Positions 34,533 to 41,487 of a DNA stretch of 41,487 nt are shown here, piece after piece. Origin of the DNA: Paludibacteraceae bacterium (GTDB lineage Bacteria; Bacteroidota; Bacteroidia; Bacteroidales; Paludibacteraceae). Within the stretch, counting starts at the first letter, position 1; each line of letters opens with the position of its first letter. The position numbers were made by a program, and so were the translations under genes. The notes beneath the pieces were generated by a model. That model saw nothing but the letters and a program-made list of their open reading frames with translations. It searched no databases and was not told the origin of the DNA. The stretch is taken from NCBI GenBank assembly GCA_017384225.1, contig JAFNUD010000014.1, positions 1-41,487 of the forward strand, written 5' to 3'.

Positions 34533-37094
34533 ATGGTTATCAAAGTAAGTAACACAAATCAACCAAATTGGACAGAGGTTAAGGTCAATGCTAACCTCCC
34601 AGAAAATCTTCACAAATTGCAAGAGATTGCATACAACCTTTGGTGGGTATGGAACTCTGAGGCAAAAAACATTTTCCGCTATATCGACAACGATGCTTGG
34701 CACAAGGCTCAATCCAACCCTATCGTATTGCTGAATATTATCAGCTACGACCGCATGTTGGAGCTCAGCAAAGACAAGAAATTCATGAAGCAATTAGACG
34801 CTGTATATGCCGAATTCCGCGCATATATGGACGAGCCAAAAGATGCTTCTAAACCTAGCGTTGCATACTATTCTATGGAGTATGGTCTAAGCCACGTACT
34901 CAAAATCTACTCTGGTGGTCTAGGTGTTCTCGCTGGTGACTACCTGAAAGAGGCTTCTGACTGCAATGTGGACATGACTGCTATCGGTTTCCTATATCGC
35001 TACGGCTATTTCACACAAACTCTCTCTCCAGAGGGGCAACAAATCGCTAAATACGAGGCACAAAATTTCTCTAACCTCCCTATCACACAAGTGAAGAACG
35101 AGGACGGTAGCCCAATGGTGATTGAAGTTCCTTATCCAGAGCGTACTGTTAAGGCATACCTTTGGAAAGTGGCTGTAGGTCGTATCAACCTCTACTTGCT
35201 CGATACCGACAACGAGATGAACTCCGAGTGGGATCGCCAAATTACTCACCAGCTCTATGGTGGCGATTGGGAGAACCGTATCAAACAAGAGATCATGCTC
35301 GGTATGGGTGGTACTATCGCACTCACCAAACTCGGCATCAAGAAAGATGTTTACCACTGCAACGAGGGTCACGCTGCCTTCATGGGCTTGCAACGCATGC
35401 TTGACCTCGTAGAGAAAGAGGGTTTGAACTTCCAACAAGCATTGGAGGTTGTTCGCGCAAGCGGTCTTTATACTTGCCACACTCCAGTACCTGCTGGTCA
35501 CGACTACTTCGAGGAGGGACTCTTCTACAAGTATATGAACATGTTCCCAAGCCGCCTCGGCATTGAGTGGCATGACCTCATCGGTATGGGTCGTCAAAAC
35601 CCTGCTGACAACACCGAGAAATTCTCTATGTCTGTATTCGCTCTCAATACTTGCCAAGAGGCTAACGGCGTGAGCTGGTTGCACGGCGAGGTAAGCAAGA
35701 AGATGTTTGCTCCAGTATGGCCAGGTTACTTCGAGGAGGAGCTCCACGTGGACTATGTAACCAACGGTGTGCACATGCCTACATGGGCTGCCAGCGAGTG
35801 GAAAGCAATCTACAAAGAGACCTTCCCAAAAGAGTGGTTCAAAGATCAATCTAACCTCGCTATGTGGGCTCCATACAACGATATGCCAGAAGAGAAAATC
35901 TGGGCTACCCGCATGAGCCTCAAGCAAAAGCTTATCAACTACCTCAAAGAGCAATTCCGCGACAATTGGATGAAGAGCCAAGGTGATCCAGCTCGTATCG
36001 TTCGCGCACTCAACGAGATGAACGCAGACAACCTCATTATCGGTTTCGGTCGTCGTTTCGCAACATACAAACGTGCTCACTTGCTCTTTACTGACTTGGA
36101 GCGCCTCGACAAACTCGTGAATAACCCAGACCGCCCAGTACAATTCCTCTTTACTGGTAAGGCTCACCCAGCTGATGGTGGTGGTCAAGGTTTGATTAAG
36201 CGCATCATTGAGATTAGCCGTATGCCACAGTTCCTCGGTAAGATTATCTTCCTCGAAAACTACGACATGCGTCTGGCTAAGCGCCTCATCTCTGGTGTAG
36301 ATATCTGGTTGAATACACCTACTCGTCCATTGGAGGCTTCTGGTACATCAGGTGAGAAGGCACAAATGAACGGTGTATTGAACTTCTCTGTGCTCGATGG
36401 TTGGTGGAAAGAGGGTTACGTAGAAGGTGCTGGTTGGGCATTGACCGACAAGCGTACCTACGAGAACCAAGCACACCAAGACCAATTGGATGCGGCTACT
36501 ATCTACCAAATGCTTGAGAAAGAGATTATCCCATTGTACTACGCTAAGAACTCTAAGGGTTACTCTCCAGAGTGGATTCAAACTATCAAGAACTCTGTGA
36601 CTAAGATCACTCCTCGCTTCACTACCAAGCGTATGATGGACGACTATTTCGAGAAGTTCTACAATAAGCTCGCTAAGCGCCACGCACTCCTTGGTGCTGA
36701 TAACTACAAGATTGCTAAGGATATCGTAGCTTGGAAGCAAAACATCGTTGCTCACTGGGACAACATTGAGGTAGTAAGCTCTACTCTCAACGCTAAGAGC
36801 GCAGAGCTCAGCGTAGGTAACAAGTGCACTATCGCAGTAGAACTTGACACCAAGGGCTTGAACGACAAGGGTATCGGCGTAGAGTTAGTAGCGGTTCGCA
36901 CCTCTACTCACAACAACGACAAGTTGTTCGAAGTGAAACCATTGGAGTTGGTACAAGCTAAGGGGTCACGCCTCTTCTTCGAGACCGAGTATCAATTGGC
37001 TTACGCAGGTGGTATGAAGTTCGGATTGCGTATGTATCCTAAGAACGACTTGTTGCCACACCGTATGGACTTCTGCTACGTTCGTTGGATCTAA
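34533..37094 (+). CDS. glgP: Alpha-glucan (glycogen) phosphorylase
   Basis: PLP-dependent GT35 enzyme releasing glucose 1-phosphate from glycogen or maltodextrin. The 853-residue protein has the N-terminal DUF3417 domain (about 14-120, NLPENLHKLQEIAYNLWWVWN) and then the phosphorylase fold (YYSMEYGLSHVLKIYSGGLGVLAGDYLKEASD, CNEGHAAF, YVTNGVHMPTW, RPLEASGTSGEKAQMNGVLNFSVLDGWW). The PLP lysine is K609 of SGEKAQMNG. The short divergent form of Bacteroidota (TIGR02094) fits. Codon use is strongly biased (GGT, CTC, AAC) compared with neighbours, suggesting high expression. It is monocistronic, with a palindrome in the leader. Confidence 0.96.
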   Translation: MVIKVSNTNQPNWTEVKVNANLPENLHKLQEIAYNLWWVWNSEAKNIFRYIDNDAWHKAQSNPIVLLNIISYDRMLELSKDKKFMKQLDAVYAEFRAYMDEPKDASKPSVAYYSMEYGLSHVLKIYSGGLGVLAGDYLKEASDCNVDMTAIGFLYRYGYFTQTLSPEGQQIAKYEAQNFSNLPITQVKNEDGSPMVIEVPYPERTVKAYLWKVAVGRINLYLLDTDNEMNSEWDRQITHQLYGGDWENRIKQEIMLGMGGTIALTKLGIKKDVYHCNEGHAAFMGLQRMLDLVEKEGLNFQQALEVVRASGLYTCHTPVPAGHDYFEEGLFYKYMNMFPSRLGIEWHDLIGMGRQNPADNTEKFSMSVFALNTCQEANGVSWLHGEVSKKMFAPVWPGYFEEELHVDYVTNGVHMPTWAASEWKAIYKETFPKEWFKDQSNLAMWAPYNDMPEEKIWATRMSLKQKLINYLKEQFRDNWMKSQGDPARIVRALNEMNADNLIIGFGRRFATYKRAHLLFTDLERLDKLVNNPDRPVQFLFTGKAHPADGGGQGLIKRIIEISRMPQFLGKIIFLENYDMRLAKRLISGVDIWLNTPTRPLEASGTSGEKAQMNGVLNFSVLDGWWKEGYVEGAGWALTDKRTYENQAHQDQLDAATIYQMLEKEIIPLYYAKNSKGYSPEWIQTIKNSVTKITPRFTTKRMMDDYFEKFYNKLAKRHALLGADNYKIAKDIVAWKQNIVAHWDNIEVVSSTLNAKSAELSVGNKCTIAVELDTKGLNDKGIGVELVAVRTSTHNNDKLFEVKPLELVQAKGSRLFFETEYQLAYAGGMKFGLRMYPKNDLLPHRMDFCYVRWI

Positions 37095-37128
37095 TTAGGC
37101 AGACCTGTCTGACATGTCCGATAATAAT

Positions 37129-37162
37129 AAAGACTGCTTCTCAATAGGGAGGCAGTCTTTTT
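37129..37162 (+). terminator. Rho-independent terminator of glgP
   Basis: AAAGACTGC (37129-37137), loop with additional pairing, GCAGTCTTT (37152-37160) and T-rich end. It lies 35 bases after the glgP stop. Confidence 0.88.
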
Positions 37163-37497
37163 ATATATCACTTAACCCTATCAGTTGTTTCTTCTACTAT
37201 AGTCCTCGGCATTGATCCACTTTTTATAGCAGTTCCGGTGATCGTCGGTAACGATACCACTACGTTACCACTAGCCACGTCATGCTACCTGCCGACATAT
37301 CTCCTACCCCCATGTATGTTTTTAGAAATAAATGGCGATTTTCGCATCATAGAACCTTGTAATTCACTCATAAATCTTAGATAATTCTTACGTTATTCGA
37401 CAACTTTCCCGATACTCACATCTCTAAACTCTAAACAATAGCGCTATAGGCGCATCCGATAAACAAGACTTTCCCTTAAAACTTTTTCCACTCAATA
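37163..37497. other. Intergenic stretch without a recognised gene
   Basis: I see no gene. A GGTAACG-CGTTACC inverted repeat (about 37239-37261) lies inside outer GTCGG/CCGAC arms (about 37236-37291), and an ATAGCGCTAT palindrome lies near 37437-37446. A minus-strand stretch of about 37 codons (about 37165-37275) is open but has no start and no similarity I recognise. Confidence 0.5.
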
Positions 37498-37529
37498 TTT
37501 GCATATCCGCAAATTTTGTAGTACCTTTG
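37498..37529 (+). promoter_or_regulatory. Promoter of the structured RNA
   Basis: TTTG (37498-37501), 20 bases, TACCTTTG (37522-37529). It is of the same quality as the promoters of highly expressed genes here, but no ORF follows for over 400 bases. Confidence 0.85.
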
Positions 37530-37535
37530 CAACCG

Positions 37536-37881
37536 ATTCCTACGCTGGAGGGAAACATGTCCTGCGAAAAGCGTTTCGCAAAGGTCTTCTTGGGGTAGGT
37601 TTCTGACATATTGAAATTATCGTTTGAGCCACTTTGTGGCGAGATAAGAAATAGCGTTTATTGCGCTTTGCGTTTGACACACGAAACTTAGCAACTTTCA
37701 TACACAGTCAAAATCAAAGTTAACAGTAAATGCCTATGGGTATGACTATATCCATACTATGCTTGTATTCAAGGCGTAGTGTGTTGTCATATCAGCGTAG
37801 GTTTCCTGTTGTTTATTTGACTGTGTGGGTAATGCTAAGACCTCGTGTGTGAATAAGCAACACGAGGTCTGCGCTTTTTTT
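37536..37881 (+). ncRNA. Candidate structured non-coding RNA, about 345 nt
   Basis: An unrecognised RNA gene bounded by a consensus promoter and a strong terminator. Local hairpins: TGCGAAA/TTTCGCA (37563-37580), TTATC with GCCAC/GTGGC and GATAA (37617-37647), and ATGCCT/AGGCGT enclosing TATGG/CCATA (37730-37777). Long-range helices: CCTACGCTG (37539-37547) with CAGCGTAGG (37793-37801), and ACACAGTCAAA (37702-37712) with TTTGACTGTGT (37816-37826). These two helices cross, implying a pseudoknot or two alternative folds. Signatures of tmRNA, RNase P RNA, SRP RNA and 6S RNA were sought and not found. The BspA-like gene starts 62 bases after the terminator, so an attenuated leader is the main alternative. 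Confidence 0.6.
37838..37881 (+). terminator. Strong intrinsic terminator of the structured RNA
   Basis: AGACCTCGTGT (37838-37848), 11-base loop, ACACGAGGTCT (37860-37870), GCGC, then seven T. An imperfect promoter-like TACCCTTTG (37891-37899) follows before the BspA-like gene. Confidence 0.9.
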
Positions 37882-37942
37882 CTGTCTTTATACCCTTTGT
37901 GAATAAACAAACGACAATACTAACAATTAAAATCAAACAGTT

Positions 37943-40900
37943 ATGAAAAAACTTTTATCTGTTTTATCCTCCACCCTTCAGGACGAAGTTAGAAGAGGAC
38001 TTCTTCTCCTTGCACTGGTCGCCAGCGTGAGTACTATTTATGCCTCAGATACTGAAGTGGATGGCATTTGGTATGATTTTGACAGCAGTACCAAAACAGC
38101 TTCTGTTACTTATAAAGGAGATTACTCTGGTCGTTATTATGACGAATATTCTGGTTCTGTAACTATTCCTGAAACGGTTATCTACAACGGCACTACCTAC
38201 AACGTGACCAGCATTGGAAATTATGATTTCCAATCGGGCGATTTGTTCTACAATATCACCAGCAATTCGACCGTAGAGGTTACACATGCTTACAACACTC
38301 ACTCCATCACTATTCCAAGAACTGTTACCTACGATAGCATCACTTATATCGTAACGAGTATTGGAGAAAGTGCATTCAATGGTTGCTCATCCCTCACCTC
38401 TATTACCATCCCTAACAGTGTAACGACCATTGGATACGGTGCTTTCTATTATTGCACCTCCCTCACCTCTATTACCATCCCTAACAGTGTAACAAATATT
38501 GGAGGTAAAGCATTCCTTAATTGCATTTCTTTGACCAAGACCAATTATACTGGCGATATTGCAGGATGGTGTAACATTAAGTTTGGTAGTCACAATGCTA
38601 ATCCAATGTACTTTTCACACAATTTCTATATAAACGACCAAGAAATTAAAGATTTGGAAATTCCTAACAACGTGACAAGCATTGGTTCTTCTGCTTTCTA
38701 TAGTTGCTCTTCTTTGACCTCTGTGACTATCCCTAACAGCGTGACAAGCATTGGAGATTATGCTTTCAATAAATGCTCTGGCTTGACCTCTGTGACTATC
38801 GGTGAAAGCGTAACAAGCATTGGAAATTATGCTTTCAATTTTTGCTCCTCCCTCACATCCATAACAATCCCCGAAGGCGTAACGAGCATTGGAGATCGTG
38901 CTTTCCAACTGTGCTCCTCCCTTACCTCCATCAATATCCCCAACAACGTAACGAGCATTGGAAATTATGCTTTCCGTAGTTGCTCCTCCCTCACCTCCAT
39001 CAATATCCCTAACAGCATAACGAGCATTGGAGAGGGAACTTTCTATAATTGCTCCTCTCTCACCTCTGCTACCATTGGTAATAGCGTAACAAGCATAGGA
39101 GCGGAGGCTTTCTATTGTGTAAATCTTGAAGAAATTTATTGTTATCCTACAACACCTCCAACTATTACAGAAGAAAATACATTTAAAAACTACAACGCAA
39201 CTCTTTATGTTCCTTGCGATAGCAAAGAAGCGTATGAAGAACATCCTGTATTTAGTAAATTTGAAAAAATCAAAGGTATTGACGACTGCGGTGGAGGATT
39301 TGTAACAACCCATATCCATGAAACCATTTGCCAAGGAGAAGTATATGAATTTGGAGAATACCTATGTGACACCACTGGAACATATACTGCTATTATTGGT
39401 GATGTGACGACCTTCCTTTACTTGACCGTGTTACCCTCCTCAATAGATACAATAACTGTAGAAGCTTGCGATTCATACGAATGGCGTGGGCAGGTATATA
39501 CTATAAGTGGCGATTATACTTTCCATGGCGATAAAGAAGACTCTATAGAACAGTGTCACACAGAAATACTCCATTTAACAATCAGTAAGTCTAAATATAA
39601 AGAAGAGACAATTGTATCAGAGGGTTCCTACGAATGGAACGGAAAGGTTTTGACTGAAAGTGGCGATTATGTATCTACTCTTAAAACTGTTAATGGTTGC
39701 GATAGTATTTTAGAGTTGCATTTAAAAATAGTGCCTGATGAAGGAGAAAATAATATTATCTATTACACTTCGCAAACAGGAGAGATTGTTACACCTCATA
39801 AGACAGATGTTTTTGGAGCTAATATTCTTAGTAATACCTATGAAAATGGTCTTGGGATCATTACTTTTGATGGACCTGTAACGCAAATAGGACACGCAGC
39901 TTTCTATGAAACTAATATAACTTCCATCATCCTCCCTAATACTGTTACCTCTATAAGGGATGCCGCTTTTGGTCATTGTTACGATCTAACTTCGATAGTT
40001 ATTCCTAATACTGTTACCCGTATAGGTTGGAGTGCTTTTTCTTATTGTTATGACCTTACCTCAATTAATATTCCATCTAGTGTTACTTTTATTGATGAAT
40101 ATGCATTTAACTACTGCGAATCACTAACATCTATTGAAATTCCTGAAGGCGTAAAATCAATAAAACAGCACACCTTTTTTGGGTGCGATCGTCTCGAGTC
40201 AGTTGTAATACCAAATAGTGTACAAAGCATTGGAGATTACGCCTTTTTTTGGTGCTCATCTCTTAACTCTATAAATCTCCCTAATAAATTACGAACAATT
40301 GGAGAATATGCATTTAGAAGCTGCCCATTTACTTCTATTACAATTCCTAAAAGTGTTACAAAAATCAAAGATAGGGCATTCAATGTTTGTAAAGAACTTG
40401 TTTCTATAGTGGTAGAAGATGGAAATACTACTTATGACAGCAGAAATAATTGCAATGCTATTATTGAAACGGGTACAAATACCCTAATTACAGGTTGTGC
40501 TACTACCACCATTCCTGACGATATAGTAAGTATTGCGGATGGTGCTTTCTATGGTTGTAACTCCTTTGGTTCCATTACTATTCCTAATAGTGTTACAAAA
40601 ATTGGTAATGAAGCCTTTAGATGTTCTATCGATACTATTTATTGTTATGCGATAACACCTCCAGAATTGTATGATGAAAAAGTGTTTGACGAGTATGATG
40701 CAAACCTTAATGTTCCTTGTTCATCACTTGAAGCATACAAATCTGACAGTTTGTGGGGAAAATTTACTAACATTCAATGTTTCGAAACTACTCCTCCTTC
40801 CGAGCCACAAGACACTACAATCTACCACCCAACTGAATATGCAACTATCTGCGAAGGAGAAATGTACACATGGATGGGAGTAGATTTTACAGCAGCAGGT

Positions 40901-41487
40901 ATGTTTATATCGGAAGAAATAGTAGAAGATGAGAACTACATTTATCACCATATCTACACATTAGAATTGACAGTTATACCATTTTCGTCCGATACAATAG
41001 TGGTGGAAGCATACGATTCATACGAGTGGCATGGCGTGGTTTATACCGAAAGTGGCACATATACATACTACGATAATTGCTTTGAAGAAATCCTCCACTT
41101 GACCATTATTGACACTCCAACTCCTCCCGAACCCGAGATACCAACTGAAGGCATTGGCGTATTCTCTATAGGTGAAGGAAAAACAGTCACATTCTCCCAA
41201 GGTAACTTGCAATACACCCAATCCACCGATACATGGTCTTTTGCCGAAAATCAATACGACTTCCTTGGTACAGCGAATGTATCAAATGGTGCATTGGCAG
41301 ACAAAATTGACTTATTCGGCTGGAGTGCAAGCAATACTACTGCGCCTTTTGGTGTAAGTACTTCTACGGATTGGGAGAATGGTTATAGTGGTTCCTTTAT
41401 TGATTGGGGTACGAATAAGATAGGTAATGATGCTCCAAATACATGGCGTACCTTGACATATGATGAGTGGTATTATCTCCGATATAA
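37943..41487 (+). CDS. BspA-like leucine-rich repeat surface protein (3' end outside the window)
   Basis: At least 1181 residues, open to the window end. The N-terminus is an unusually long signal-like segment (MKKLLSVLSSTLQDEVRRGLLLLALVASVSTIYA). Two blocks of Treponema/BspA-type repeats (LRR_5) follow, about 38350-39130 and 39880-40630, each with about ten units of about 23 residues (consensus SxTIPNSVTSIGxxAFxxCSSL). After each block come modules of the DSYEWxGxxYTxSGxYT type (about 39320-39720 and 40830-41100). From about 41150 a further domain starts (GIGVFSIGEGKTVTFSQGNLQY) that is common in Bacteroidota surface proteins. Family members bind host proteins or other bacteria. Export via type IX secretion is possible (porZ is in this window), but the C-terminal signal is not visible. 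Confidence 0.9.
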   Translation, partial: MKKLLSVLSSTLQDEVRRGLLLLALVASVSTIYASDTEVDGIWYDFDSSTKTASVTYKGDYSGRYYDEYSGSVTIPETVIYNGTTYNVTSIGNYDFQSGDLFYNITSNSTVEVTHAYNTHSITIPRTVTYDSITYIVTSIGESAFNGCSSLTSITIPNSVTTIGYGAFYYCTSLTSITIPNSVTNIGGKAFLNCISLTKTNYTGDIAGWCNIKFGSHNANPMYFSHNFYINDQEIKDLEIPNNVTSIGSSAFYSCSSLTSVTIPNSVTSIGDYAFNKCSGLTSVTIGESVTSIGNYAFNFCSSLTSITIPEGVTSIGDRAFQLCSSLTSINIPNNVTSIGNYAFRSCSSLTSINIPNSITSIGEGTFYNCSSLTSATIGNSVTSIGAEAFYCVNLEEIYCYPTTPPTITEENTFKNYNATLYVPCDSKEAYEEHPVFSKFEKIKGIDDCGGGFVTTHIHETICQGEVYEFGEYLCDTTGTYTAIIGDVTTFLYLTVLPSSIDTITVEACDSYEWRGQVYTISGDYTFHGDKEDSIEQCHTEILHLTISKSKYKEETIVSEGSYEWNGKVLTESGDYVSTLKTVNGCDSILELHLKIVPDEGENNIIYYTSQTGEIVTPHKTDVFGANILSNTYENGLGIITFDGPVTQIGHAAFYETNITSIILPNTVTSIRDAAFGHCYDLTSIVIPNTVTRIGWSAFSYCYDLTSINIPSSVTFIDEYAFNYCESLTSIEIPEGVKSIKQHTFFGCDRLESVVIPNSVQSIGDYAFFWCSSLNSINLPNKLRTIGEYAFRSCPFTSITIPKSVTKIKDRAFNVCKELVSIVVEDGNTTYDSRNNCNAIIETGTNTLITGCATTTIPDDIVSIADGAFYGCNSFGSITIPNSVTKIGNEAFRCSIDTIYCYAITPPELYDEKVFDEYDANLNVPCSSLEAYKSDSLWGKFTNIQCFETTPPSEPQDTTIYHPTEYATICEGEMYTWMGVDFTAAGMFISEEIVEDENYIYHHIYTLELTVIPFSSDTIVVEAYDSYEWHGVVYTESGTYTYYDNCFEEILHLTIIDTPTPPEPEIPTEGIGVFSIGEGKTVTFSQGNLQYTQSTDTWSFAENQYDFLGTANVSNGALADKIDLFGWSASNTTAPFGVSTSTDWENGYSGSFIDWGTNKIGNDAPNTWRTLTYDEWYYLRY

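Follow-up and report, generated by a model that had tools for sequence, protein, structure and literature searches.

Near the end of the window analysed in this work, a stretch of 41,487 nt from a Paludibacteraceae bacterium, lies a sequence (37536-37881) that a preliminary description took for a free-standing gene of an unrecognised structured RNA, framed by a promoter and a terminator and tied by two long-range helices that cross each other. The question that this locus raises is whether such an RNA is conserved, and whether it is an independent gene or belongs to the gene that follows it.

The promoter, the helices and the terminator named in that description are all present where it had placed them, including the 9-bp and 11-bp crossing helices and the 11-bp stem followed by seven T residues (Table 1). 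The promoter pieces, TTTG and TACCTTTG, agree with the Bacteroides -33 TTTG / -7 TAnnTTTG consensus given in the retrieved part of PMC7366714, and the RNA of this copy is predicted to start at about 37534-37537. The fold energy of 37536-37881 is -118.7 kcal/mol, the mean of 100 dinucleotide shuffles being -87 (z -6.92), and none of the 100 shuffles reached it. The element had also been said to lack an ORF; among the listed ORFs of at least 60 aa only one overlaps the element, a 61-aa antisense ORF over its 5' part (37424-37609). The inserted hairpin that follows the 5' domain reads TTATCG..CGAGATAA; by eye, similar hairpins are found near the RNA start in L023, L086, L101 and L192.

Table 1. 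Coordinates of the features of the window copy and of the gene behind it
Feature	Position	Strand	Basis or remark
Promoter, TTTG (37498-37501) and TACCTTTG (37522-37529)	37498-37529	+	sequence
5' domain	37535-37616	+	differs between copies; sequence, by eye; covariation statistics on PK1 alone
5' domain pairing, CCTAC with GTAGG	37539-37543 with 37595-37599	+	by eye
5' domain hairpin, TGCGAAA..TTTCGCA	within 37535-37616	+	by eye
5' domain pairing, ATGTC with GACAT	37557-37561 with 37605-37609	+	by eye
PK1, CCTACGCTG with CAGCGTAGG, 9 bp	37539-37547 with 37793-37801	+	crosses helix A; part of the family only
Additional hairpin of the window copy, TTATC/GATAA and GCCAC/GTGGC	37617-37647	+	by eye
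Conserved core	37644-37880	+	covariance model R1, 240.7 bits; window copy among the sequences used to build R1
Core hairpin GCG/CGC	37654-37666	+	loop UUUAU (37657-37661) with GUAAA (37726-37730) as possible partner, pairing H-H
Helices B (37677-37683) and C (37687-37692), 5' strands	37677-37692	+	strongest covariation of the family
Helix A, ACACAGTCAAA with TTTGACTGTGT, 11 bp	37702-37712 with 37816-37826	+	covariation in A1
Helix A, 3' strand	37816-37826	+	inside the long-stem loop; two nt in common with D
Apical core hairpin	37739-37793 (37739-37746 with 37786-37793)	+	covariation analyses, pair counts
Long stem D+E, 5' strand	37794-37817	+	overlaps PK1 target 37793-37801
Small hairpin GGGT/ACCT	37827-37843 (37827-37830 with 37840-37843)	+	C strand in loop
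Helices C (37834-37839) and B (37844-37850), 3' strands	37834-37850	+	share positions with the 5' half of the local terminator
Local terminator hairpin, AGACCTCGTGT (37838-37848) with ACACGAGGTCT (37860-37870), 11 bp	37838-37870	+	-21.5 kcal/mol for 37834-37874
Long stem D+E, 3' strand	37852-37875	+	runs into the U-tract
U-tract TTTTTTT	37875-37881	+	sequence
Gene for a BspA-type leucine-rich repeat protein (LRR_5)	37943-41487	+	open to the window end; 37943-40000 searched

None of the 4227 families of Rfam 15 matches the window element at the gathering cut-off (one tRNA is found elsewhere in the window), and a search of 37090-37950 at E ≤ 10 gave only matches below the cut-off. Nothing was found over the element in 20 loci that are mostly close copies, in 20 loci found with the covariance model described below, or in a plasmid locus; at E ≤ 0.1, nine loci gave a single match, below the cut-off and outside the element. 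The judgement that this is not a housekeeping RNA (tmRNA, RNase P, 6S or SRP) stands, given that the element is multicopy and that neither ARAGORN nor Rfam has a match over it. Bacteroidales-1 (RF01693), listed in the retrieved passages of PMC2864571 as a motif of Bacteroidales whose role is unclear, is likewise a structured RNA of the same order but gave no match to the element in the cmscan runs; its sole match in the window genome lies elsewhere (L337, G000:C65:39880-40078; 58.9 bits, under the 60-bit cut-off). The DUF805b RNA (RF02914) is a cis-regulatory RNA that occurs in the same leaders, but it is a separate 35-nt motif outside the fold of the element. In three of the 20 loci scanned it is located between the U-tract and the start codon (L012:1883-1917, L013:1442-1476 and L018:1443-1477), so that two structured RNAs share one leader. 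In the open-access literature no title, abstract beginning or retrieved passage (PMC8040213, PMC2864571, PMC7366714, PMC10994844) describes this RNA; the family is thus without description in the sources searched, and a candidate list in a supplement could hold it as an unnamed entry.

A blastn search with the window element identified further copies in the window genome and matches in 55 of 101 genomes (its own included), all from one genus, some of these covering the promoter only (query 1-39). Pattern scanning listed at least 117 contig stretches with the motif; among those listed nearly all come from Paludibacteraceae or Bacteroidales, many of them from ruminant or horse gut samples, and one bears the title Holosporaceae, which is probably due to misbinning. 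From all loci 81 distinct copies were taken, and these close copies were mostly found by the pattern GCGTAGGTTTCN(1-2)TGTTGTTTATT. Four copies without a terminator strand were dropped, leaving the 77 of the first flank survey; three more lacked the GCGYTTATT anchor (74), and 73 were aligned (alignment A1; L121 omitted). The covariance model R1, built from these 73 cores, finds 20 places in the window genome (259.7 to 36.4 bits). It has matches in 117 of 121 genomes of the genus, in 67 of 120 genomes (23 of 33 genera) of the family sample, in 41 of 295 genomes (25 of 183 genera) of the order sample and in one of 296 of the phylum sample, namely the window's own, which is also included in the other counts; all are lower bounds, given that 7 or 18 candidates were scored per genome under stricter filters. 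The element is therefore multicopy and conserved among relatives, beyond what the preliminary description had reported. The cultured carriers are Phocaeicola dorei (83.5 bits with R1) and P. vulgatus, whose plasmids bear identical copies (identity over 248 nt), and one further copy is on a putative viral contig. In P. dorei CL06T03C03 the plasmid copy lies 66 nt ahead of the coding sequence of WP_133300711.1.

Two copies of the window genome have unusual layouts. L003 (G000:C66:971-1131) consists of the promoter and the 5' domain, stops after the first core hairpin and passes directly into a BspA-like gene; it resembles a broken-off copy that has lost its attenuator. In L202 (G000:C61) a divergent short copy is immediately followed by a promoter together with a 5' domain like that of the window copy, so that one gene has tandem leaders.

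The many copies, their diverse neighbours and their patchy distribution in the order could also reflect a mobile repeat with a promoter that inserts before genes, its structure serving its spread, and the plasmid and viral copies as well as the truncated and tandem copies are in line with this idea. We consider it very improbable. The nearest relative of a copy was found in the same genome for just 4 of 35 copies (1.0 on average and at most 7 after shuffling; 69 of the 73 rows carried a genome label), one pair being 96% identical, so that within-genome bursts of near-identical copies were not seen. The element has no match in 50,697 phage records, the window copy has none in the phage or plasmid sequences searched, and viral contigs scanned with the first pattern contained none; a phage or plasmid origin was rejected, as two Phocaeicola plasmids and one viral contig are too few for a mobile element. 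In addition, the ends of the element are those of the predicted transcript, and the covariation in cis described next is strong.

Covariation was evaluated with a tree-based null that imitates R-scape, and is not R-scape itself; it consists of 100 alignments whose substitutions were redistributed over the tree. In A1, 8 of 27,495 column pairs reached E ≤ 0.05, every one of them in helix A or helix B; helix A, the 11-bp helix of the preliminary description, is thereby backed by covariation, and so is a new helix (37677-37692 with 37834-37850). Helix C came next among the remaining helices (E 0.28), and the small hairpin, with 98.6% of cells paired and double changes in one of its four pairs, gave E 0.43. 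The columns of the search pattern cannot covary in A1, because the copies were selected by that pattern. A model with 42 pairs has 95.7% of cells paired and double changes in 22 pairs; its double-change cells number 363, compared with a mean of 96 in shuffled and at most 75 in slid controls. The H-H pairing is 92.7% paired, with 62 cells changed on both sides versus 55 in one slid control.

For the wider family, 147 copies found with R1 were used: 100 chosen by us (60 from the order and 40 from the family listings) and 47 from loci already collected. Seven of them are close copies (L223, L224, L226-L229 and L230; above 160 bits). Together with 13 rows of A1 they form an alignment of 160 sequences, made by MAFFT without structure, in which 10 of 28,203 column pairs reached E ≤ 0.05, nine of them belonging to helices B and C and the tenth being an off-register pair of C columns. 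Double-changed cells amount to 518 in helix B and 218 in helix C; pair counts in the model-found set lean to helices A, B, C and the apical stem, because R1 contains them. Helix A is 59.8% paired order-wide versus 54.5% when slid by one. The five tested pairs of helix B all form within 15 of 18 copies of the window genome and in 6 of 306 combinations between copies; helix B thus acts in cis, because its pairs form within copies and hardly between them. Two further candidates did not hold. Helix G (AGCAAC with GUUGCU; 90.1% paired) would give a tidy three-strand attenuator and is not claimed, its 25 double changes lying within the 18-30 of the slid controls; helix F (TTTGAC with GTCAAA) is weak, as it is 79.6% paired versus 65.1% slid by one and has fewer double changes than the slid control (78 versus 108).

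At the 3' end there is a longer helix than the one recognised at first, the long stem D+E, which in the window has 23 bp with one mismatch (-25.5 kcal/mol). In 158 sequences its median is 22 bp and -28.2 kcal/mol, versus -12.1 kcal/mol with a shuffled strand, and the real strand is better in 99%; taken singly, no D or E pair reaches significance against the tree-based null (best E 0.63, 160 sequences). The loop of D+E contains the 3' strands of helices A, C and B, and the architecture resembles an upstream arm with strands that base-pair within a terminator-stem loop. The local hairpin is an alternative terminator in the close copies: its z is below -2 in all 72 usable close copies and in 20% of the 142 usable model-found copies, where it is ordinary (median z -0.6). 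This hairpin cannot fully coexist with B, C and D+E, because they have strands in common. In the 73 close copies the median energies of B/C and of the local terminator are -21.4 and -21.2 kcal/mol, and D+E is the most stable of the rival structures (-25.8).

The 9-bp helix, PK1, belongs to part of the family. Its presence could be evaluated in 176 of 220 copies, those with a recognisable promoter and an internal GCGTRR segment, and the first 60 nt contain an exact 6-nt complement of that segment in 59 of the 176, 5.4 being expected; the remaining 117 are without it. T-A and C-G combinations covary (46:2 versus 4:16; Fisher p 4e-10 before any correction for relatedness). The PK1 strand, CYACGC, targets the segment that forms one side of D+E; where present, PK1 would compete with the long stem, in keeping with a switch. 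A choice between two partners had been proposed on the basis of the element GTAGGTTTC, which does occur twice (37595 and 37797). The idea of a partner choice is supported; a switch between the two GTAGG sequences is possible, and the choice between the local terminator and helices B and C is better supported.

The surroundings of the copies were analyzed with simple rules of our own for gene calls and signal peptides. Six of the 77 copies of the first set and six of the 147 model-found copies had no call; in the others the gene that follows has the orientation of the element in 70 of 71 and 133 of 141 cases, respectively (the opposite one in 8 of the 141). The distance from the element to this gene has a median of 69 nt (quartiles 52 and 93) in the model-found set, and in the window the start codon is 61 nt past the U-tract. 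The bias is weaker for the upstream gene, which is on the same strand in ratios of 51:22 and 91:50. Of the 147 model-found copies, 132 have the motif TAnnTTTG in the 260 nt that precede the core; inside the gap between element and gene it is found in 9 of 118 and 6 of 67 copies. In the same loci it occurs in 13 of 103 100-nt stretches before other genes, versus 5 of 118 when the last 100 nt of the gaps are taken; the missing promoter in the gap is a modest argument, because control genes rarely show the motif either. Because the gene behind it shares its strand and lies a median of 69 nt away, the element reads as a 5' leader and not as the free-standing RNA gene initially proposed. A stable, self-contained small RNA that acts in trans or sponges a protein, always terminated and with the gene transcribed by leakage or from a promoter of its own, would account for the promoter and terminator that closely frame the RNA, its compact conserved fold, the strong terminator of the close family and the long stem at the U-tract of the wide family. 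Nevertheless, we regard it as unlikely in view of the strand bias, the narrow gap and its few promoter motifs, this last point being tempered by the controls, and of the 20 matches in one genome, whose pairing strands differ. Given the strand bias and the narrow spacing, conditional readthrough into the gene would be the simplest account.

The proteins encoded behind the element are diverse, 195 of them falling into 135 clusters with no common pathway. A Pfam scan of 124 of the 133 same-strand downstream proteins (the first 340 residues at most) assigned LRR_5 to 11 and, among the 25 of 66 families listed, DUF4988, a restriction-type helicase, an outer-membrane barrel, the T9SS tail and BACON to three each; single sugar transferases, methylases and defence-like genes were also found. 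By a crude signal-peptide rule, 75 of the 133 downstream proteins are predicted to be exported versus 55 of 183 other genes (p 3e-6). Gut bacteria of one order thus seem to place the element before many different genes, often those of surface proteins. As side observations, all named by eye, seven copies (L207, L213, L239, L251, L274, L278 and L334) precede one family of small helix-turn-helix-like proteins, and the copy on the putative viral contig (L335:386-5361) precedes an EF-Tu-type GTPase-like gene, with an Hsp70-like protein two genes further. An abiF RNA (RF03085) is close to another copy (L208:917-953).

Surface proteins, sugar transferases and restriction or other defence-like genes behind a large folded leader bring to mind processive antitermination. 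The EAR element, or epsC motif, and LoaP antitermination likewise involve a leader RNA before accessory, surface-related genes. In a leader of this kind (LoaP/EAR or put-like) the RNA, with or without a NusG-type protein, would let the polymerase pass the terminator and later ones. This explanation seems to us distinctly unlikely, since the element carries its own terminator, with strands inside the fold, and is unmatched in the Rfam searches.

A leader peptide was also considered and rejected. GGAG..ATG is frequent in the 5' part of close copies, and in one subtype the small ORF reads MSCEKRFA..; nonetheless, with a start rule set by us, GGAG..RTG is found in 38 of the 64 close copies that have a promoter (9 of the 73 lack one), the reading frames extend over 4 to 31 codons with varying start, frame and length, and the same stretch forms a hairpin. 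A conserved small ORF was thus not found.

We favor the view that the element is a 5' leader RNA and that its probable role is transcription attenuation of the downstream gene. The parts of the leader, as read from the sequence, are a promoter motif, a knotted core and the long stem D+E ending at the U-tract, with an additional local hairpin ending at the same U-tract in the subfamily of the window; the same-strand gene usually follows about 50-95 nt past the U-tract, across a gap that carries no promoter motif. A same-strand gene close behind, a promoter ahead of the leader, and terminator strands shared with an alternative covarying helix are features expected of an attenuator, and all of them were found here. 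RNA polymerase would stop at the U-tract unless upstream strands sequester portions of the terminator beforehand. Strands A, C and B would do so by pairing into the long-stem loop and into the 5' half of the local hairpin; the 5' strand CYACGC, where present, would occupy one side of the long stem. Once these parts are captured, transcription would continue into the gene. Which way this goes would be decided by a signal, be it a small molecule, a protein or another RNA, that binds the conserved core. Against attenuation, D+E persists before the U-tract in the fully knotted fold, so that A, B and C alone need not stop termination; moreover, helix A is poorly paired order-wide, PK1 is absent in most of the copies in which it could be assessed, and the downstream genes have no common pathway.

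Attenuating riboswitches are also 5' leaders with competing helices in which terminator strands are shared with upstream partners; in contrast with them, the element has no common downstream pathway and no Rfam match in the scanned stretches, and it presumably has more long-range helices than is usual in that group. T-box leaders are similar as well, being large leaders with a terminator and mutually exclusive helices; unlike them, the element has no Rfam match, and the downstream families (25 of 66 listed) are not amino-acid genes.

A broader and more tentative possibility, for which we would claim limited confidence, is that these RNAs are an order-wide class of large sensing RNAs of gut Bacteroidales, in which a distant copy-specific arm captures the loop of its own terminator, so that one signal would release up to about twenty accessory genes in a genome, with surface, polysaccharide and defence functions, while the leaders would be insulated from each other by their own covarying strands. 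If the leader model is true, gut Bacteroidales, including Phocaeicola cultured from humans, would control many accessory genes through one RNA class, genes that had no known link. The signal sensed would then point to a physiological cue shared by surface and defence genes, and the fold, in which an upstream arm binds the terminator loop, would be an uncommon architecture among attenuators.
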